A DNA stretch of 64,000 nt, from NCBI RefSeq assembly GCF_000955805.1, contig NZ_JYOA01000001.1, positions 761,995 through 825,994 of the forward strand. Reading direction: 5' to 3'. The translations under genes were made by a program, and so were the position numbers. Origin of the DNA: Pseudomonas sp. 21 (GTDB lineage Bacteria > Pseudomonadota > Gammaproteobacteria > Pseudomonadales > Pseudomonadaceae). The stretch's first letter is position 1. Each line of letters begins with the position of its first letter. The notes below the pieces were generated by a model. The model saw nothing but the letters and a program-made list of their open reading frames with translations, was not told the DNA's origin and did not search any database. Positions 1-60,183 of the stretch are shown here, piece after piece.

Positions 1-1194
1 GAAGGCCGCGAGCATCTTGTGCGTGGAGTGGGTGGTAAACACCAGCGGGCCGCTGTCGTCGCGGCTGGTGCCCATGCCGTAACGCCCGGCGTAGAACTCG
101 TGGAAGGCCGCGTAGGCGTACCAGGCTTCGTCGAAATGCAGCACCTCGACACTGTCGCCCAACGCTTGCTTGATCATCTGCGCGTTGTAGCAGAGACCGT
201 CATAAGTGGAGTTGGTCACCACCGCCAGCCTTACCTTGGGCTCGCGGCCGCGCGCCAGGGGGCTGGCTTCGATCTTCGCGGCGATGGATTCGCGGCTGAA
301 CTCGGACAGCGGGATCGGCCCGATGATGCCCAGCTCGTTGCGCTCCGGCGTCAGGTACAGCGGGATGGCGCCGGTCATGATGATCGAATGGAGGATCGAC
401 TTGTGGCAGTTGCGATCCACCAGCACCAGGTCGTCGCGACAGACCATGGAGTGCCAGACGATCTTGTTCGCCGTGGACGTGCCGTTGATCACGAAGAAGG
501 TATGGTCGGCGCCGAAATTGCGCGCCGCGCGGGCTTCCGCCTCGGCCAGCGGGCCGGTGTGATCGAGCAGCGAGCCCAGCTCGGGCACCGAGACGGAGAG
601 GTCCGAACGCAGGGTGTTCTCCCCGAAGAACTGGTGGAACGCCTGCCCTACCGGGCTCTTGCGATAAGCCACGCCGCCGCCATGGCCGGGCGTGTGCCAG
701 GAATAGTTGGACTGCGCGGTGTGCTCCACCAGTGCGCGGAAGAACGGCGGCAGCAGGCCTTCGAGATACTTGCGCGCGGCGCGGCTGACCTGGCGGGCGA
801 GGAAGGGAACGGTATCTTCGAACAGGTAGAGAATGCCGCGCAGTTGGTGCAGGTCGGCCATGGACTCGGCCGGCGCGTTCTCGATGGTCATCTGCTCGCC
901 GAGCGCGAAGATCGGCAGTTGCGGCGCGCGCACCCGCGCCATGCGAATCAGCTCCACCACGTCCTGCAGGAGGCGCTGGTTCTCCCCTGCCCCCTCGGCG
1001 GCGACCAGGATGCAGGCGAGGCCGTGGTGGGTCGAGGCGACGATGCGCCCCTCGGCGGAGCTGGCGGTGGAAAGGATGCTGAAGCCGTCCTGCTCCAGCT
1101 CCCGCGCGATATCCCTCACCCGGTCGCCGGCCACGGTGTCGGCCTTGATGTCGCGGTGAACGATGAGGATGGGGAATTTCAGATCTTTGTACAT
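1..1194 (-). CDS. ldcA: Lysine/ornithine/arginine decarboxylase LdcA, N-terminal 398 codons (truncated by window edge)
   Basis: PLP-dependent basic amino acid decarboxylase of fold type I; in P. aeruginosa LdcA makes cadaverine from lysine. The ATG at 1194 opens MYKDLKFPILIVHRDIKAD, a response-regulator-like wing domain (about residues 1-140), followed by the aminotransferase-fold core. The motif THSTHKML, whose lysine forms the Schiff base with PLP, is visible at about residue 393, just before the sequence runs out. The full protein should be about 750 residues, so roughly the last half is missing. The identification rests on the family and on the position next to dnaQ, as in P. aeruginosa. 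The gene is monocistronic here and faces away from the dnaQ side terminator. Confidence 0.9.
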   Translation of the reverse strand, partial: MYKDLKFPILIVHRDIKADTVAGDRVRDIARELEQDGFSILSTASSAEGRIVASTHHGLACILVAAEGAGENQRLLQDVVELIRMARVRAPQLPIFALGEQMTIENAPAESMADLHQLRGILYLFEDTVPFLARQVSRAARKYLEGLLPPFFRALVEHTAQSNYSWHTPGHGGGVAYRKSPVGQAFHQFFGENTLRSDLSVSVPELGSLLDHTGPLAEAEARAARNFGADHTFFVINGTSTANKIVWHSMVCRDDLVLVDRNCHKSILHSIIMTGAIPLYLTPERNELGIIGPIPLSEFSRESIAAKIEASPLARGREPKVRLAVVTNSTYDGLCYNAQMIKQALGDSVEVLHFDEAWYAYAAFHEFYAGRYGMGTSRDDSGPLVFTTHSTHKMLAAF

Positions 1195-50513: not shown

Positions 50514-50652
50514 CGGATTGCCCGGACGGGTCATGCTCCGGGGGTTCTGCACAGCACGTGCATCTTGTTGGCCCGCACCGCATTGGCGGAATACGAACAT
50601 CGTGGGGACTTTCTACCCGCAGAGTGACAAACCGAAAACCCCCTGTTTTCGG
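50514..50652 (-). other. Intergenic region upstream of the holins, candidate late promoter
   Basis: About 140 non-coding bases between the Q-like gene and the terminator. A late promoter and antiterminator loading site would be expected here. I see no strong -35/-10 pair. Confidence 0.3.
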
Positions 50653-54328: not shown

Positions 54329-54534
54329 CGGCGAACCTCGTTCAGCCGCTGGCAGTCGACGCAGTACTCACACCCTGGAACGGCGAGGCGGCGCGCTGCC
54401 GGGATATCGTCACCACACCAGCCACAGTGAGTAGCGCTGATGGTATGGGCCGGCGCCGGCCGCTGGCGGGCGGCGATGAGGGAAGCGCGCTCAATCTCTT
54501 CGCGCTCCGCAGCCAAGTCGAGGTTATCAGCCAT
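54325..54534 (-). CDS. TraR/DksA-family zinc finger protein
   Basis: 69 residues. C-terminal zinc finger: CGWCGDDIPAARR...CEYCVDC. A short helical N terminus (EEIERASLIAARQ) lacks a long coiled coil, as in TraR. TraR-like proteins enter the RNA polymerase secondary channel and mimic ppGpp-DksA. Overlaps the replication gene by four bases and CII by eight. Confidence 0.85.
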   Translation of the reverse strand: MADNLDLAAEREEIERASLIAARQRPAPAHTISATHCGWCGDDIPAARRLAVPGCEYCVDCQRLNEVRR

Positions 54535-55030
54535 TGGCTTTTACCTCCTCCAGCCGACGCTCCATCGACTGCCGCGCGCCCGCCATGATGCCGAGGACGG
54601 CGCGGATGACGTTGGCACCGTGGAACTCCAGATCGACAACCTCGTGGGGCTCCCATTTGTTGTCGTCGGCGCCCTTCTGCAGGCTGGCCACGAACTCACC
54701 TTCACGCTGCAGCAACTCGCCGACAGCCTTGAGCGCTGAGCCCGTAGCCTCGACAGCCTCCGGTCGATACCAGACCGCCCCAGCCGGGCGCATCAGCGCA
54801 TCGAGCAGACGCGAATCCTTGGTGAGGCGGATGATCTCTTCGAGCTCATCCGGCGTCGGCCACCGGCGCTCCTCGTCAAGCTTGAGTTTCTTCTGGAGGT
54901 CCTCATAGGGGAGAACCATTTCATGGGCAAGGGAAGTAAGCCCTCCCTTGTAGTCGCGCCCTGCGCGGTACAGCGCCTGGCGGAGATCGAAAACCGGACC
55001 GGCGTCCGGCAGCAGGTCTTTGCGGCTCAT
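54527..55030 (-). CDS. Phage regulatory protein, CII-like family
   Basis: 167 residues. FDLRQALYRAGRDYKGGLTS and LAHEMVLPYEDLQKKLKLD form a helix-turn-helix N terminus as in the phage regulatory CII family. The C-terminal half (GEFVASLQKGADDNKWEPH...) is helical. It lies downstream of cro in the early-left transcript. A nested hairpin (55053-55090) and the tandem loop array lie immediately upstream, so its expression may be RNA-controlled. Confidence 0.8.
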   Translation of the reverse strand: MSRKDLLPDAGPVFDLRQALYRAGRDYKGGLTSLAHEMVLPYEDLQKKLKLDEERRWPTPDELEEIIRLTKDSRLLDALMRPAGAVWYRPEAVEATGSALKAVGELLQREGEFVASLQKGADDNKWEPHEVVDLEFHGANVIRAVLGIMAGARQSMERRLEEVKANG

Positions 55031-55052
55031 AATGTTAGGAACCCCCAGCGGC

Positions 55053-55090
55053 CGGTTCGCAGCGGGTCTCCCCGCTCCGTCGCCGAACCG
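55053..55090 (-). other. Nested hairpin in the leader of the CII-like gene
   Basis: Outer CGGTTCG/CGAACCG (55053-55059 and 55084-55090) enclosing inner AGCGGG-TCTC-CCCGCT (55061-55076). About 23 bases before the CII start. It lacks the CTCTGAC loop of the array next to it. Confidence 0.6.
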
Positions 55091-55116
55091 CTTGTGTGCT
55101 GTGCTTCCTACACCAA

Positions 55117-55141
55117 ACCGGCAAAGTCAGAGATTGCCGGT
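55117..55141 (-). other. CTCTGAC-loop hairpin A
   Basis: Eight perfect pairs ACCGGCAA/TTGCCGGT around a nine-base loop that reads TCTCTGACT on the minus (sense) strand. Three further pairs (CCA/TGG) follow past one position that is a U-G wobble on the minus strand. Confidence 0.8.
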
Positions 55142-55152
55142 CTGGCACCTAT

Positions 55153-55180
55153 CGCATCAGGGGTCAGAGATCCTGATGCG
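55153..55180 (-). other. CTCTGAC-loop hairpin B
   Basis: Nine perfect pairs CGCATCAGG/CCTGATGCG around a ten-base loop reading ATCTCTGACC on the minus strand. Stem unrelated in sequence to hairpin A. Confidence 0.8.
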
Positions 55181-55297
55181 TCTGTACCGAAAGTCGCCAG
55201 TTAACGACATAGCCAGGACGGAAGGTATTCCCCTACTATTCCGGCTACGGCGTCTCGATGCCTCCTCACAAGTGCTGTGCGGGCATCGAGCGTCGTT
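55181..55297 (-). other. Spacer between hairpins B and C
   Basis: 117 bases with no gene or clear hairpin of the CTCTGAC type. It contains short inverted repeats only. No promoter seen with confidence. Confidence 0.4.
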
Positions 55298-55327
55298 GCC
55301 AACCGAGGTGTCAGAGTCTCGATTGGC
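55298..55327 (-). other. CTCTGAC-loop hairpin C
   Basis: Nine pairs GCCAA-x-CGAG/CTCG-x-TTGGC, with the inner mismatch becoming a G-U wobble on the minus strand. The loop is ACTCTGACAC on the minus strand. Confidence 0.8.
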
Positions 55328-55328
55328 G

Positions 55329-55364
55329 CCGCCAGGAGGGGGTGTCAGAGTCCCTTTCTGGCGG
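55329..55364 (-). other. CTCTGAC-loop hairpin D
   Basis: CCGCCAG...GGG/CCC...CTGGCGG, 11 Watson-Crick pairs plus two A-C positions that are weak on the minus strand. Loop ACTCTGACAC, identical to C and E. It begins two bases after hairpin C. Confidence 0.78.
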
Positions 55365-55416
55365 AGATGCGGCTTGAGCTCTTCCCATGTGCTGGGGGTC
55401 CATGCCGTATCACCCC

Positions 55417-55448
55417 GCCGGCGCGGGGTGTCAGAGTCCCGCGCCGGC
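55417..55448 (-). other. CTCTGAC-loop hairpin E
   Basis: Eleven perfect pairs GCCGGCGCGGG/CCCGCGCCGGC around the loop ACTCTGACAC (minus strand). It starts ten bases after the cro stop. GC-rich and very stable, with no T run, so it is not a simple terminator. Confidence 0.85.
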
Positions 55449-55458
55449 ACCCTTCGAA

Positions 55459-55695
55459 CTAGGCCACCTTCTTAGCGGCGATGCCTTGTTCCGTGATTCC
55501 GAAATGCTCGAGCACATCAGCGAGAGAAACCTTCCCCTCACTCTCACGCACCAAAGCCTTGATCAGCGTGACGCTTGGATCCTTGCTCGCGTACTTCACA
55601 TGGAGCAGCAAGTAGTTCAACGCAATGCCACAGCGCCCCGCATATGCAGCAGCACCCTCAGCATCCTGCTTTTCAATGTATTCACGCAGTTTCAT
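55459..55695 (-). CDS. Cro-like repressor
   Basis: 78 residues, MKLREYIEKQDAEGAAAYAGRC, then IALNYLLLHVKYASKDPS: a short helix-turn-helix of the Cro/YdaS type. First gene of the early-left transcript, divergent from the CI-like repressor with operators between. The ATG at 55695 is chosen; a TTG two codons upstream is less likely. Confidence 0.8.
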   Translation of the reverse strand: MKLREYIEKQDAEGAAAYAGRCGIALNYLLLHVKYASKDPSVTLIKALVRESEGKVSLADVLEHFGITEQGIAAKKVA

Positions 55696-55719
55696 GTGCA
55701 AGCCCTCGGGCCGATTTCA

Positions 55720-55736
55720 TTAACCCAAAGGGTTAA
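55720..55736. promoter_or_regulatory. Repressor operator O1
   Basis: TTAACC-CAAAG-GGTTAA, perfect 17-base palindrome, 25 bases upstream of cro. The same palindrome recurs at O3 and O4. Confidence 0.85.
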
Positions 55737-55760
55737 ATGTACCTGTCACCAGCAAGGATA

Positions 55761-55777
55761 TTCACCTTTAAGGTTAA
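55761..55777. promoter_or_regulatory. Repressor operator O2
   Basis: TTCACC-TTTAA-GGTTAA, one mismatch to the consensus, between O1 and the CI start (18 bases before it). Suits CI autoregulation and cro control. Confidence 0.75.
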
Positions 55778-55795
55778 GAGCAAGACACTTCAAGG

Positions 55796-56443
55796 ATGAA
55801 AATTTCAAACACTCGATTATCGAATCTCCGCAGGCTGATGACTGAACGGAAGCTGCGCGGAACAGATTTGGCCCAGCTGCTCGGCAAGTCTGATGCCCAG
55901 GTGAGCGCATTTGCCGGCAAGACTCCGAGAAAAGGGATCGGTGATCAGATCGCGCGCGAGATAGAGCAGGTTCTTGATTTACCTACAGGCTATTTAGACG
56001 TCCCCGTAACTGTTGACGAGCAAGGGAACGCAGTAGTACTCGGCACTACAGGGAGAAAACTGCCAGTGATTGGCTCTGTTGCAGCAGGGGTTTGGTGCGA
56101 GGCCATCGACCTTTTCCAGCCAGGCGACGCGGAAGAATGGATTGAAGCACCCGGCCCAGTGGGACCTCACGCTTTCATCCTCCGCATCGATGGCTTCAGC
56201 ATGATTCCCAAGTTCCAAGAAGGCGACAAGGTTGTCATAGACCCTGACCTAGACGCTCAGCCAGGACACTTTGTGGTGGCAAAGCGGGCGCATGACAAGG
56301 CTGTCACATTCAAGCAACTGCGAAAGGAAGGCGAAGAGTTCTACCTCTACGCCCTCAATCCAGATTGGCCAGAGCGGATCATCCGGCTCACCGAAGAATG
56401 GCACCTGTGTGGCCGAGCCAGGTGGAAAATTACCGATCTTTAA
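55796..56443 (+). CDS. CI-like repressor, S24 family, self-cleaving
   Basis: 215 residues. N-terminal helix-turn-helix: LRGTDLAQLLGKSDAQVSAF. Cleavage site Ala-Gly in SVAAGVWCEAI near residue 100. Catalytic Ser in DGFSMIPKF and Lys in AVTFKQLRK. RecA-stimulated self-cleavage would induce the phage after DNA damage. The ATG follows AAGG directly, an unusually close ribosome site, so weak or leader-poor translation is possible. It ends in its own terminator. Confidence 0.92.
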   Translation: MKISNTRLSNLRRLMTERKLRGTDLAQLLGKSDAQVSAFAGKTPRKGIGDQIAREIEQVLDLPTGYLDVPVTVDEQGNAVVLGTTGRKLPVIGSVAAGVWCEAIDLFQPGDAEEWIEAPGPVGPHAFILRIDGFSMIPKFQEGDKVVIDPDLDAQPGHFVVAKRAHDKAVTFKQLRKEGEEFYLYALNPDWPERIIRLTEEWHLCGRARWKITDL

Positions 56444-56453
56444 CCCTTCCCCC

Positions 56454-56478
56454 AAGCCCGCCTCTCGCGGGCTTTTTT
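56454..56478 (+). terminator. Terminator of the CI-like gene
   Basis: AAGCCCGC-CTCTC-GCGGGCTT stem followed by TTTTTT. It separates the repressor transcript from the early-right promoter. Confidence 0.88.
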
Positions 56479-56495
56479 ACGCCCCGGCATCATTT

Positions 56496-56512
56496 TTAAC
56501 CATAAAGGTTAA
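56496..56512. promoter_or_regulatory. Repressor operator O3
   Basis: TTAACC-ATAAA-GGTTAA, perfect consensus arms, nine bases before the -35 of the early-right promoter. Confidence 0.85.
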
Positions 56513-56520
56513 TTTCAATC

Positions 56521-56548
56521 TTGACTACTTAACCGCAAGGGTTAATAT
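56521..56548 (+). promoter_or_regulatory. Early-right promoter, repressor-controlled
   Basis: TTGACT (56521-56526), a 16-base spacer and TAATAT (56543-56548). Operator O4 fills the spacer and touches the -10. Start expected near 56555, at the foot of hairpin F. Confidence 0.75.
56529..56545. promoter_or_regulatory. Repressor operator O4
   Basis: TTAACC-GCAAG-GGTTAA, perfect arms, inside the early-right promoter, so repressor and polymerase exclude each other. Confidence 0.85.
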
Positions 56549-56552
56549 CAGC

Positions 56553-56584
56553 CTCGTACCCACCTCTGACCCCTGGAGTACGAG
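56553..56584 (+). other. CTCTGAC-loop hairpin F, 5' leader of early-right transcript
   Basis: CTCGTAC-CCA / TGG-A-GTACGAG, ten pairs with one bulge, loop CCTCTGACCCC on the plus (sense) strand. It starts about where transcription begins and ends two bases before the first ATG. The GGAG that could serve as ribosome site lies in its 3' arm. Confidence 0.75.
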
Positions 56585-56586
56585 AC

Positions 56587-56796
56587 ATGCAATCAGCACA
56601 GCACATGACCAAAGCCCGCTGCCAGGTGTATCTGCACCCGGCAGCGGCCACCAGCCCCGCCGCTGTTGAGGCCATTCAGGCCCAAACCGGCCTTCTGGTG
56701 ATCGTTGGCACCTCCCAGCGCGCCTGCCTGACCCAGCCGCGCCCTGTCGCCCCCAGCACGGAGGCCGACAGCGGCCCGTGGGGAGGTGCCGCGTGA
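56587..56796 (+). CDS. First gene of the early-right operon, unknown
   Basis: 69 residues from 56587 (MQSAQHMTKARCQVYLHPAA...), or 63 from the ATG at 56605, which follows the CACAGCAC box seen before three other genes of this operon. No motif recognised. It ends over the start of the next gene. Confidence 0.55.
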   Translation: MQSAQHMTKARCQVYLHPAAATSPAAVEAIQAQTGLLVIVGTSQRACLTQPRPVAPSTEADSGPWGGAA

Positions 56797-57308
56797 ACGA
56801 CTTCACCATCTCCCTCGCCACGCACGAACTGCTCCACCACATGATCCAGGTGGGCGGCTTGGCAGTCTGCAAACTGGAACGGGAGGCCTCCGCCATCACC
56901 GCAAACTTCGAGGTCCTGCTCGAAGGCGATACCACTCGCGTCAAGGTCCTGATCGGCGACTACAACGGCGAGATCAACCTGGTGAGCGGCTTCCCGTCCA
57001 ACCACATCAAGCTGCGCAACTTCCTCGAAGACATCGCCAATGGCCGAGTCGAATCCGGCCGCCCGCGCGATCCACTCCCCTCCGCACTGGCCATGACCAG
57101 CGAAGACCACGCGAAGATCGAATCGGTGATCGCATGCGGCGGGTACAGGAAGCTGGCCACAGGTCACGTCATCACCGTGCATCGGCGGCCGTCCGGCGGA
57201 ACAGCAATGGTTGTTTCGGAACATAGCGAGTCGCTCCTCGTTTCCGGATCAGTGAACGACCTGTTGTTGGCAGTGGTCGAGCACGTCGAAAGCCATCTCG
57301 AAGCCTGA
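56793..57308 (+). CDS. Early-right operon protein of unknown function (171 aa)
   Basis: 171 residues. The GTG at 56793 has GGGAGG six bases upstream. The protein MNDFTISLATHELLHHMIQVG... is of mixed alpha/beta type, soluble, with no recognised family. It overlaps the previous gene by four bases. Confidence 0.7.
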   Translation: MNDFTISLATHELLHHMIQVGGLAVCKLEREASAITANFEVLLEGDTTRVKVLIGDYNGEINLVSGFPSNHIKLRNFLEDIANGRVESGRPRDPLPSALAMTSEDHAKIESVIACGGYRKLATGHVITVHRRPSGGTAMVVSEHSESLLVSGSVNDLLLAVVEHVESHLEA

Positions 57309-57318
57309 GGTCCGAGCC

Positions 57319-57603
57319 ATGAATCGGACCATTCGTGAGGCAGCAGCCGTCCTCGGCCAAGGTGAGCGAGCACTGCGCGACCGCCTGCGGGCTGACAAGG
57401 TGCTGAATCAGGACGGCACGCTCGCCGCCCAGCACATCGGCAAAGGCCATCTGTTCATGGATCCACGCGCGACCTGGAACAAGCAGACCGGCCGCTACCG
57501 CCATTACAGCGTGGTGATGGTCACCGAGGCCGGTATCGACTGGCTGGCCAAGCGCCTCGGCATCTCGATCACCGTTACTCCGCACAAGGATCACGTGGCA
57601 TGA
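57319..57603 (+). CDS. KilAC-like antirepressor domain protein
   Basis: 94 residues. The sequence TIREAAAVLGQGERALRDRL, GHLFMDPRATWNKQTGRYRH and VTEAGIDWLAKRL fits the C-terminal KilAC domain of phage antirepressors, here alone without a Bro or Rha N-terminal part. It may bind DNA or the repressor. Its stop overlaps the next ATG. Confidence 0.8.
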   Translation: MNRTIREAAAVLGQGERALRDRLRADKVLNQDGTLAAQHIGKGHLFMDPRATWNKQTGRYRHYSVVMVTEAGIDWLAKRLGISITVTPHKDHVA

Positions 57604-57965
57604 GCGCATCGAACCCCATCACCGACGCAGTGGGTGCGCTCCGCCTGGTCGGCATGCACTTCACCGCGCCTACCGCCTACCCGGCCGACGCCCTTCAGGA
57701 CGCCGCCGCAGAGTGCATCGAGCGCCTGTCCGCCATCCCGCAGGCTTCCATCGACCTGGGCGTGCTGTACGCCAAGCTGTTCGCCATCACCCCGCGCGGC
57801 TGGCTCCCGCACGTCACGCTGACCACGGACAAGGACCGTCCCTACGGCGCCGTGGTCACCGATGAAGCTGGCAACGTCGCCGCCCGCGACACCGGCAAGA
57901 CCATCGAAGGGCTGGTCGCACTGATCCGGGCACGGCTCCCGGCGGGGCGCGGGGAGGCGCCGTGA
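57600..57965 (+). CDS. Early-right operon protein of unknown function (121 aa)
   Basis: 121 residues, MSASNPITDAVGALRLVGMH..., soluble, no motif recognised. It shares four-base overlaps with both neighbours, a strong sign of a coupled small operon gene. Confidence 0.7.
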   Translation: MSASNPITDAVGALRLVGMHFTAPTAYPADALQDAAAECIERLSAIPQASIDLGVLYAKLFAITPRGWLPHVTLTTDKDRPYGAVVTDEAGNVAARDTGKTIEGLVALIRARLPAGRGEAP

Positions 57966-58198
57966 CCACCATCGAGCAACTGTTCAAGCAGTGGGGCACC
58001 GCCACGCTGACGCTGGAGCAGGTCCGCGCGACCTACTTCCCGCACATCAAGACCGAGAAGCGCCTGCGCGCACTGATCAAGAGCCGCGAGGTGACCCTCA
58101 CCACCCGCACGCTCACCACGTCCCGCCGGGAAAAGCCGGTGGTGTACCTGCAGGACCTGGCCGAGTTCCTCGACGCCCAGTCCACGCAGGCAGCCTGA
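57962..58198 (+). CDS. PrtN-like pyocin activator family protein
   Basis: 78 residues. MTTIEQLFKQWGTATLTLEQ, YFPHIKTEKRLRALIKSREV and VVYLQDLAEFLDAQ resemble the pyocin activator PrtN family, which drives pyocin genes in P. aeruginosa. In a prophage it may regulate phage or host pyocin genes. It overlaps the upstream gene by four bases. Confidence 0.8.
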   Translation: MTTIEQLFKQWGTATLTLEQVRATYFPHIKTEKRLRALIKSREVTLTTRTLTTSRREKPVVYLQDLAEFLDAQSTQAA

Positions 58199-58411
58199 AG
58201 CAAAGCGCCCCAGCGCACCTGGGTGGATCAGCAGGAGGAGTGGCAGCCATGTAACCGCAGCAACGGAGCAGGACGGCACACCCGGACCGCGCTCGAATCG
58301 CTCACATAAGGCGGCTTGTGATGAGCAGGAGGGCCCGCCATCGGGCCTTCCCCATAGCCCTCTCGACGGGAGGGTTATGGGGAACCAACAACAACCACTG
58401 AGGCACAGCAC
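58199..58411 (+). other. Long leader with two hairpins inside the early-right operon
   Basis: 213 bases between genes. GGCCCG-CCAT-CGGGCC (58332-58347) is followed by a 13-base-pair hairpin with one wobble (58350-58382). An ATG at 58321 opens a 26-codon frame through both hairpins, with AGGAG spacing unsuited. Neither hairpin carries CTCTGAC. Confidence 0.5.
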
Positions 58412-58753
58412 ATGAAGAAGACTGATGTGGCCGACTTCCTCGGCTCACTGAATGCCGGCGTGTTCGCCAACCAAATCGGGGCAGCACTCTCGGACGTCGG
58501 GTCCGGCGTCGTCGAGTTTGGCAAGAAAGGCAAGGTCACCATCACCCTGGAGATGAGCCGGGTCGGCGAATCCAACCAGGTGAACATCAGCCACCGGCTC
58601 GACTACAAGGTGCCGACCAAGCGCGGCAGCCGCAGCGAAGACACGGCGCTCGACACGCCGATGTACGTCACCCCGGAAGGCCTGGAGCTGTTCCAGACCA
58701 ACCCCACCGCCCAGCTCTTCAAGGAGAGCGAAACCCCCGTCCACCCGCGGTAA
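58412..58753 (+). CDS. Early-right operon protein of unknown function (113 aa)
   Basis: 113 residues, MKKTDVADFLGSLNAGVFAN..., with SGVVEFGKKGKVTITLEMSR. Looks like a small alpha/beta protein often found beside DUF2303 genes in Pseudomonas phages. It starts after the CACAGCAC box. The stop lies inside hairpin G. Confidence 0.7.
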   Translation: MKKTDVADFLGSLNAGVFANQIGAALSDVGSGVVEFGKKGKVTITLEMSRVGESNQVNISHRLDYKVPTKRGSRSEDTALDTPMYVTPEGLELFQTNPTAQLFKESETPVHPR

Positions 58754-58769
58754 CTCTGACCTCAACCGC
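58747..58769 (+). other. CTCTGAC-loop hairpin G
   Basis: Five pairs GCGGT/ACCGC around loop AACTCTGACCTCA on the plus strand. The stem includes the stop codon of the previous gene. Weakest member of the family. Confidence 0.5.
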
Positions 58770-58792
58770 ACCTCAACCAAGGAACACAGCAC

Positions 58793-59605
58793 ATGAAAGA
58801 AGCTCTGCAACTGCTACTGGCCAACGCCGTCGCTGCCGCCAGTGTCCGCATCGAGGGCACCACCGGGGCCTTCGCCGTTGTACCGGAAGGCTACAAGCTC
58901 CAGAGCATGGAGAAGCTCCACGCCAACCGCGACCGCTTCCGCGGCGCCCTGAGCACCTCCTCGCTGGCCGACTTCGTCACCTACGTGAAGGACCGCGCGG
59001 ACCAAGCCACTCACGGCTTCGTCGACAAGGACAACATGACCTGCCGCGTGATCTTCAACCTGGGCGACTCGGCACTGGCTGGCCACGCCGATGACATCGC
59101 CACGCTGCGCCTTGAGCCGACAGCCGCCTATGCCGCACTCCAACGCATCGCCGGCAAGACCCTGTCGCAGAAGGACTTGGCCGAGTGGATGGAGGACTGG
59201 CGCGACTTCCTGGAGGCCGTCACCCCGTCTGACGAGTCGATGCCCATCGCCCAGGCCATCGCCGCGGTGCGCAACATCACCATCAAGGCGACCTCCGAGC
59301 GCAACAACGTCGAAGGCAACTTCAACGCCGCCCGCAGCGCCATGGACAGGATCGAGGCCGACAGCCAGGACACCCTGCCGGGCTCGCTGATCTTCTCCTG
59401 CGCGCCGTTCGAGGGTCTGCCGCTGCGCAACTTCGTCCTGCGCCTGTCGGTGCTGACCGGCAACGACAAGCCGGTGCTGAAGCCGCGCTGGGTGGCCGAG
59501 GAGCAGGGCTGCGAAGAGATCGCGCAGGAGTTCAAGGACCTGCTCGCGGCTGACATCGCCGACGCCACCACTCTGACCATCGGCACTTTCGAGCTGGGCG
59601 CCTAA
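58793..59605 (+). CDS. DUF2303-family phage protein
   Basis: 270 residues. GYKLQSMEKLHANRDRFRGA, LADFVTYVKDRADQ and KTLSQKDLAEWMEDW match the general pattern of DUF2303 proteins in phage recombination/replication regions. Function not known. It follows hairpin G and a GGAACACAGCAC leader, and is followed by hairpin H. Confidence 0.85.
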   Translation: MKEALQLLLANAVAAASVRIEGTTGAFAVVPEGYKLQSMEKLHANRDRFRGALSTSSLADFVTYVKDRADQATHGFVDKDNMTCRVIFNLGDSALAGHADDIATLRLEPTAAYAALQRIAGKTLSQKDLAEWMEDWRDFLEAVTPSDESMPIAQAIAAVRNITIKATSERNNVEGNFNAARSAMDRIEADSQDTLPGSLIFSCAPFEGLPLRNFVLRLSVLTGNDKPVLKPRWVAEEQGCEEIAQEFKDLLAADIADATTLTIGTFELGA

Positions 59606-59624
59606 CAGCTTCCAACTGCAACAC

Positions 59625-59662
59625 CCCGCCGCCGGACTCTGACAGCTATTCCCGGCGGCGGG
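59625..59662 (+). other. CTCTGAC-loop hairpin H
   Basis: Eleven perfect pairs CCCGCCGCCGG/CCGGCGGCGGG with a 16-base loop that begins ACTCTGACA (plus strand). It sits between DUF2303 and the next gene, with no T run. Confidence 0.75.
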
Positions 59663-59682
59663 CTCTACAGAGGACACAGCAC

Positions 59683-60183
59683 ATGCAAGCCATCAACAGC
59701 TACGGACTGATCATCGTCCTGCTTCTCGCCTCCATCATCCAGGTCTTCAGCGGCTGGATCATCTCCCTGCGCTCCGAAGCCAAGGGCTACGACAAAGGTT
59801 ACGACGACGCCAAGCGCGGGAACGCGCCGCACATCGAGGCCCTGCACGAGGACCTGGCGCTGCTCCGCAGCCGCCTGCGCCTGGCAGAAGCGGAGCACAC
59901 CAAGGACCGCGAGAACCTGATGCAGGACTGCGATAAGCGGATCGCTCACTACTCCCGCCAGGCTAACCCCTTCACGGAAGAGGACGCGGCCGGGCTGATG
60001 AAGACCGCAGGCCAACTACGCCGCGCCAATGAGTTGTTCGAGCACCTGGGCGCAACGACGGAGGCTGATTACGCCTTCTCCGCCAGCAACCACGCCACGG
60101 TCATGGCCGGGCGCATCCGGGAAGCCATTGCCGCAGCCAACGAAGGCGCACCGTCTGTTCAGCCGGAAGGAGCCGCAGCATGA
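59683..60183 (+). CDS. Membrane-anchored coiled-coil protein
   Basis: 166 residues. One N-terminal helix (about 7-27, YGLIIVLLLASIIQVFSGWI) and a long cytoplasmic coiled coil (about 48-85, HIEALHEDLALLRSRLRLAE). It starts after a GAGGACACAGCAC leader. No family recognised; perhaps a membrane-tethered regulator. Confidence 0.7.
   Translation: MQAINSYGLIIVLLLASIIQVFSGWIISLRSEAKGYDKGYDDAKRGNAPHIEALHEDLALLRSRLRLAEAEHTKDRENLMQDCDKRIAHYSRQANPFTEEDAAGLMKTAGQLRRANELFEHLGATTEADYAFSASNHATVMAGRIREAIAAANEGAPSVQPEGAAA

Follow-up and report, generated by a model that had tools for sequence, protein, structure and literature searches.

A putative nut-like signal with a phage-specific loop word in both early operons of temperate Pseudomonas phages

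We have found a two-part signal in both early operons of a temperate Pseudomonas phage and its relatives. Its unit is the loop word CTCTNAC, usually in a hairpin loop, followed by the linear box CACAGCAC. The signal, its architecture, its orientation, the pairing of its stems and the coherence of its loop base within each phage are apparent from the sequence. We infer that it acts as RNA within the early transcripts, that it is read by a phage protein and that its effect is most likely antitermination, in the manner of a nut site; we assign this reading a probability of about one half. The window analysed here is a stretch of 64,000 nucleotides from a 6.3-Mb genome (positions 761995-825994), in which a first-pass annotation had singled out an array of five hairpins. 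This array proved to be part of a larger system, and two points had escaped that annotation: the CACAGCAC box 3' of each hairpin group, and the sites of the opposite operon on the other strand.

The locus is centred on an S24 repressor gene (55796-56443, plus strand) flanked by divergent early operons. To its left, the minus-strand operon contains a cro-like gene (55459-55701, by PHROG match only), the five hairpins, a CII-like gene of the CP76 type (54527-55030, by PHROG and Pfam CP76), a DksA/TraR-like zinc finger gene and a Prim-Pol/DUF5906 primase gene. To its right, on the plus strand, are operator-like repeats, a pL-like promoter recognised by consensus match only (TTGACT, 16 nt, TAATAT; 56521-56548), an ORF of about 69 amino acids (56587-56796), a gene for a KilAC-domain protein and others. 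The ~69-aa ORF belongs to phrog_13491, of unknown function, and is a candidate reader at the position of lambda N. As a separate observation, many of the relatives listed among loci L012-L079 have a hairpin CCGTAAA...TTTACGG just upstream of CII, around its likely ribosome-binding site; this hairpin is absent from the window.

All five hairpins previously reported between the cro-like and CII-like genes, with CTCTGAC in their loops, are present at the places given for them on the sense (minus) strand. Hairpins E (55416-55449, nearest cro), D (55327-55366) and C (55298-55327) all have the loop ACTCTGACAC, as had been claimed for these three, and the group is closed by a CACAGCAC box at 55272-55279. 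Hairpins B (55151-55182, loop ATCTCTGACC) and A (55110-55148, loop TCTCTGACT) are closed by a second box at 55096-55103. The sequence has no T run after any of the five, again in line with the annotation. The bare 7-mer CTCTGAC is not enriched in the window (11 copies found, 10.75 expected); five of the 11 copies lie within 311 bp on one strand, and 1000 dinucleotide shuffles of 55031-55458 held at most one. The array region folds 5.4 s.d. below its shuffles. The annotation also described stems that stay paired while sharing no sequence. The five hairpins are indeed there with different stems; the exception concerns D, whose stem contains two A-C mismatches and fails the hairpin threshold of our script, which the other four pass, so that this weakest stem is weaker than had been implied. 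Hairpin E is present in the centroid of a long fold, absent from the minimum-energy structure, and forms when folded locally.

A covariance-model search was run with a model (R1) built from 13 hairpins of other phages, none of them from the window. At E-values up to 1, five hits were obtained in the window: hairpins E (27.5 bits, E-value 3.9e-05), C (20.9 bits, 0.003), B (16.9 bits, 0.04) and D (14.2 bits, 0.25), and a distant site at 59629-59658 (13.1 bits, 0.5); hairpin A was missed. In the whole genome the best two hits were again E and C, and the third (E-value 0.78) fell in an unrelated place. At the same limit no hit was returned from 19 host stretches (380 kb), nor from LPPA56 or PG1, which carry different words. 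The 13 hairpins, which have different stems and were chosen as paired, show compensatory changes at all eight pairs. The orthologous long-stem site was aligned from 53 of the 56 references listed, three having been removed manually because it was doubtful that they represented this site. Across these 53 phages CTCT.AC is invariant, 28 stem cells show a double change as against 7.9 in shuffles (0 of 500 reach this value), and 90.9% of cells are paired, compared with 86.8% in shuffles; pairs with a double change number 5, which is not above shuffles (3.6 on average; 107 of 500 reach 5). The invariant loop and the excess of double changes bear out the earlier description of a selected loop on covarying stems, with no copied repeat.

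The unit recurs on the plus strand in the opposite operon. The first pL-side hairpin (56551-56586) carries CTCTGAC in its loop at 56564-56570, and its CACAGCAC box (56597-56604) falls within the first codons of the ~69-aa ORF. Further on, CTCTGAC at 58754-58760, with only a 5-bp flanking repeat and thus a weak stem, is followed by a box at 58785-58792, and a long-stem hairpin (59623-59664, CTCTGAC at 59637-59643 in the loop) by a box at 59675-59682; both boxes are immediately 5' of an ATG. A hairpin of another kind, TTCCCCATAG...TTATGGGGAA (58348-58384, plus strand), has no CTCTNAC and precedes a CACAGCAC box (58404-58411) and an ATG; a hairpin and box resembling it were also seen in Turba and LPPA56. 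Given sites of the same kind in the opposite operon, the switch specific to cro and CII that the first-pass annotation had offered as one possible role is too narrow.

The geometry of the unit was catalogued across related loci. In the CII-anchored loci L010-L080, all 165 catalogued sites are in sense orientation, 106 of them lying upstream of CII and the other 59 on the pL side, with none elsewhere. In the typed loci, CTCTNAC occurs within 70 nt upstream of 235 of the 313 distinct boxes and within 70 nt downstream of 3. The spacing from word to box is mostly 8-63 nt, greater for the outer hairpins of tandem groups, with a median of 31 nt where there is a hairpin and 23 nt where there is none. 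The loops of CTCTNAC hairpins are 7-20 nt long, and at some sites the word stands outside any strong hairpin.

The named phages Turba, Lodos, Meadow, Presto and LPPA56 share this layout, as do many related contigs, and the named relatives of the window phage have P. aeruginosa and Stutzerimonas stutzeri as their recorded hosts. A near-identical pL-side site occurs in a second genome among 25 searched in the same genus, and the pattern CTCTNAC-14..42-GACACAGCACATG was matched in one of 274 genomes of the class, the window's own. Many loci were fetched by patterns, two of these sets containing word and box by construction; sets of 71 and 66 loci were fetched through the CII protein alone. Rfam 15 gave 0 matches in the window at the gathering score, and at a relaxed threshold gave five sub-threshold hits in 54900-59800, with a best E-value of 0.18. 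No description of the element appears in the portions of the literature that were searched, including those of PMC3483164, PMC7326022 and PMC11846083; in the portion of PMC7326022 consulted, an N homologue is reported to be missing in a different P. aeruginosa phage.

The loop is not one fixed sequence, as the five hairpins had been taken to indicate: its variable base switches between phages, and it does so in both operons together. In hairpin loops this base is C in 128 cases, G in 69, A in 19 and T in 5. All five T cases read CTCTTGAC, and the examples listed resemble -35 TTGAC boxes; one unpaired CTCTTAC lies upstream of a box, and this stretch may match the pattern by chance. Apart from the CTCTTGAC cases T is absent at the variable position in hairpin loops, as if the boxA-like CTCTTAC were avoided. 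For the comparison between operons, deduplication reduced 156 loci to 84, and sites on both strands were present in 47 of the 84; among the hairpins counted, a few were of the wordless 58348 kind. The majority base was the same in both operons in 46 of the 47 loci, against a permutation mean of 23.7, and 0 of 20,000 permutations (which ignore relatedness) reached that number. Site pairs within a phage agree in their loop base in 266 of 285 cases, and words outside strong hairpins match the phage type in 36 of 38, both misses lying 5' of a true site. At the orthologous long-stem site some phages have CTCTGAC and others CTCTCAC on a nearly unchanged stem, and the word switches between the close relatives window/L226, LPPA56/L021 and L155/c035.

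Exceptions to this coherence are few. In locus L226 two loops near cro have AAC and the others, on the pL side too, have CAC; L015 has GAAC beside AC versions, and L065 has one G. The cro-CII region of L226/L010 has the appearance of a mosaic array, with AAC in the two cro-proximal loops and CAC in the remainder, which suggests that recombination took place within the array, close to the immunity genes. The distant PG1 clade uses ACTTACC or ACTCACC as its word and ACACAGCA as its box. There, 49 loci were examined after 17 loci of the CTCTNAC clade had been left out; 15 were without the word on one or both sides, and the 34 with the word on both sides agreed in every case (34/34), a second pL match with G being present in 5 of the 34. 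After deduplication the agreement was 8/8, with a permutation p of 0.037 that ignores relatedness.

Because each phage shares its loop base between both operons, the reader of the word is most likely a phage-encoded factor. The sponge role that had been suggested earlier is unlikely for a host small RNA, since phages recorded on P. aeruginosa carry different words (C in Turba, A in LPPA56) and no covarying complement was seen among the matches listed from the early regions scanned. In a scan of 19 sequences for a host or phage small RNA complementary to the loop, made with a pattern that did not fit the A-type word CTCTAC of LPPA56, the matches listed with a conserved context were either the sites read on their opposite strand or parts of coding genes.

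The orientation, the flexible spacing, the placement and the use of one word per phage in both operons fit a signal borne by the transcript. CUCUNAC, usually held open in a hairpin loop, and the CACAGCAC box after it would make up a two-part signal, of which the early transcripts carry copies. A phage-encoded factor would read the one version of the word that a phage carries, with few exceptions, in both of its divergent early operons, and the constant CACAGCAC would be read as a second contact by something shared. Together they would load an antitermination or elongation complex on RNA polymerase early in each operon, as nut sites do. Antitermination is our first choice because the positions of the units, just after pL and in the cro-cII interval, are those of lambda nutL and nutR, and among the roles named in the first-pass annotation a phage RNA-binding or antitermination factor remains the best.

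The closest working analogy would be lambda N/nut. Lambda has nut sites in each of its early operons, one just after pL and one in the cro-cII interval, in sense orientation; they combine a hairpin with a linear box, recognition of the hairpin is phage-specific, and a small first pL gene is involved. The unit described here has the same two locations, the same sense orientation and the same pairing of hairpin and linear box. In lambda, the linear boxA lies upstream of the boxB hairpin, which has a GNRA-like loop of 5 nt and is bound by an N protein with an arginine-rich motif. Here, by contrast, the hairpin comes first and the linear box follows, as the positions of the word around the boxes indicate; there are often several copies per operon, the loop is 7-20 nt with CUCUNAC and not a 5-nt boxB loop, and the linear box is CACAGCAC and not boxA. 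Since box order, loop sequence and box sequence all differ, the unit is nut-like in placement and logic without being a member of the nut sites. CUCUNAC does resemble CUCUU(U)A, the core of the boxA of rRNA and lambda nut to which NusB-S10 binds, but unlike boxA it is usually in a hairpin loop, varies by phage and has C, G or A rather than T at its variable base. The put sites of HK022 are likewise tandem RNA hairpins early in phage operons; as they act in cis without a phage protein, phage-specific words common to both operons would not be expected of them.

Terminator-like sites between 50450 and 64000 numbered 8, with 9.4 expected, in a weak scan that fails to pick up a hairpin, visible by eye and with a T6 tail, 3' of the repressor gene (about 56454-56478). 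A scan of 54900-56800 found none and also missed a visible one. With terminator-like sites not above chance, antitermination would have to act against Rho, the likely target, or against weak signals.

The main rival to antitermination is translational control, which we judge on balance to be unlikely. A phage protein would bind the loop and the box near ribosome-binding sites and so repress or activate several early genes. An ATG directly follows 103 of 231 boxes, 88 of these with an SD-like triplet at most 8 nt upstream, and the first pL hairpin of the window overlaps GGAG, the likely SD of the ~69-aa ORF. The other 128 of the 231 boxes have no ATG there, however, and the cro-CII array of the window lies about 80-420 nt upstream of the CII start, its two boxes preceding no ATG. 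In translational operators of the MS2/R17 type, a phage protein reads a hairpin near start codons. The present sites are similar in having a phage-specific hairpin near some start codons, here with a putative protein reader; they differ in occupying several loci per phage in both operons and in that more than half of the boxes are away from a start codon.

The mismatches in the stems bear on a second rival, an element acting as DNA, in which cruciforms or single-stranded hairpins would serve as replication-priming or promoter sites, for example for the phage Prim-Pol. Among 143 collapsed hairpins the internal stem mismatches were 33 G-T and 42 A-C. This near symmetry is as expected if both strands pair; it lacks the G-U excess expected of an RNA helix and would speak against strict selection for one. 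Terminator controls gave G-T:A-C ratios of 5:1 and 4:2, too few for calibration. Either mismatch may be tolerated in long GC-rich stems, or pairing may also be important at the DNA level, and the presence of the Prim-Pol/DUF5906 primase in the same operon would suit a priming site. We nevertheless regard an element of this sort as improbable: orientation follows transcription at 165 of 165 catalogued sites, on both DNA strands, the spacing from word to box is variable, the word also occurs outside strong hairpins, and one primase sequence is common to phages of different loop types (L002 with C, L016/L017 with A).

RNA-RNA regulation, in which the CACAGCAC boxes would be targeted by a leader RNA of the late operon carrying the exact antisense GUGCUGUG, appears very improbable. 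The exact box antisense is contained in GCACGTGCTGTG, which occurs in ten loci, several of them near-identical but with the divergent L184, L216 and L217 also included; in the window, Turba and LPPA56 it lies 3' of the late-regulator gene and 5' of a terminator-like hairpin. The window copy is GCACGTGCTGTGC (50549-50561, minus strand), just upstream of that hairpin, and its first 12 bases are present in the ten loci. This leader was rejected as an antisense partner: the 8-nt match is exact, yet the duplex energies of the window sites (-29.8 to -46.9 kcal/mol) are no better than those of random early windows (mean -39.0, best 5% -48.5), and several of the best duplexes do not use the box. It would also leave the loop word unexplained, no covarying complement of the word being seen among the matches listed. 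Neutral repeats, or a copied mobile hairpin without function, are hardly credible, for although GC-rich inverted repeats are common in the window, different sites have no stem sequence in common but retain the word and the box, and each phage is coherent in its loop base.

If the signal is read by a phage protein, the best candidate, which is unproven, is the product of the ~69-aa first pL gene; we infer this role from the following comparisons. The gene was found in 34 of 35 PG1-clade loci and in 124 of 152 typed loci (many of them partial), a typed locus being one with at least 75% of its sites of one type, except that L226 and the window were set by hand. None of its 89 distinct protein sequences is common to two loop types, which is equally true of six other proteins tested. 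Between L155 and c035, which differ in loop type, five neighbouring proteins are 88-100% identical, the ~69-aa protein is 28% identical and CI 19%. Strong divergence of CI recurs in further close pairs of different type, so that the immunity genes, too, correlate with type. Loop type does not simply follow CI or cro, as the mosaic L226 has AAC in its cro-proximal hairpins and CAC in the rest, including the pL side; CI is 82% alike in L134 (G) and L223 (C).

Within the ~69-aa protein, a difference at residue 49 is seen in 25 of the 59 close pairs of unlike type and in 1 of the 272 pairs of like type; for residue 50 the corresponding numbers are 21 and 4. Tyr49 is present in all five distinct sequences from A-type phages, where close C and G relatives have Thr. 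In the PG1 clade the neighbour of residue 49 is mostly His for the T type (9 of 10 distinct sequences) and mostly Asn for the C type (9 of 13 distinct sequences). Columns that track type are found elsewhere as well, for example in a 121-aa protein (14/16 vs 30/248) and in the primase (25/32 vs 7/204), so that the association of residues 49 and 50 is a lead and not a proof. The ~69-aa protein occupies the place of lambda N. The window's copy has no obvious arginine-rich N-terminus. Pfam and NCBIfam gave no match to the protein itself, which is placed only in PHROG 13491; its structure model is of low confidence (pLDDT 67).

Other proteins were considered as readers and set aside. The KilAC and PrtN/excisionase-like proteins are 100% identical between some phages of different type, and KilAC, the DksA-like protein and the primase each have one sequence common to different types; as they can be identical between loop types, these four are unlikely determinants. 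No column of CII separates the types (best normalised mutual information 0.60). A 166-aa pL protein (59683-60183, plus strand) was rejected because the window (G) and L226 (C) share the residue at its key column. That column has K or H in most C-phages and Q, E, D, N or G in G-phages, with exceptions, and by eye the protein has an N-terminal hydrophobic stretch.

A more specific form of the nut-like reading is offered tentatively, as a possibility that we would not yet favour. Each phage would tag both of its early operons with its own word (CUCU[G/C/A]AC or ACU[U/C]ACC) and the constant CACAGCAC, matched by a fast-evolving first pL protein of about 50-90 aa in which residues near 49-50 help to set the word. 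Only the phage's own transcripts would then be processed, with no cross-talk with co-resident prophages. If the nut-like reading is true, these phages would have a nut-like system that lies outside the classical lambdoid N/nut family, comes with natural variants whose specificity differs by a single base and has a small protein as its candidate reader, and it could explain how the early operons run in these temperate phages of Pseudomonas without a recognised N. The words would form a set of orthogonal RNA tags, and it would become testable how a phage RNA-recognition pair changes its specificity at many sites at once.
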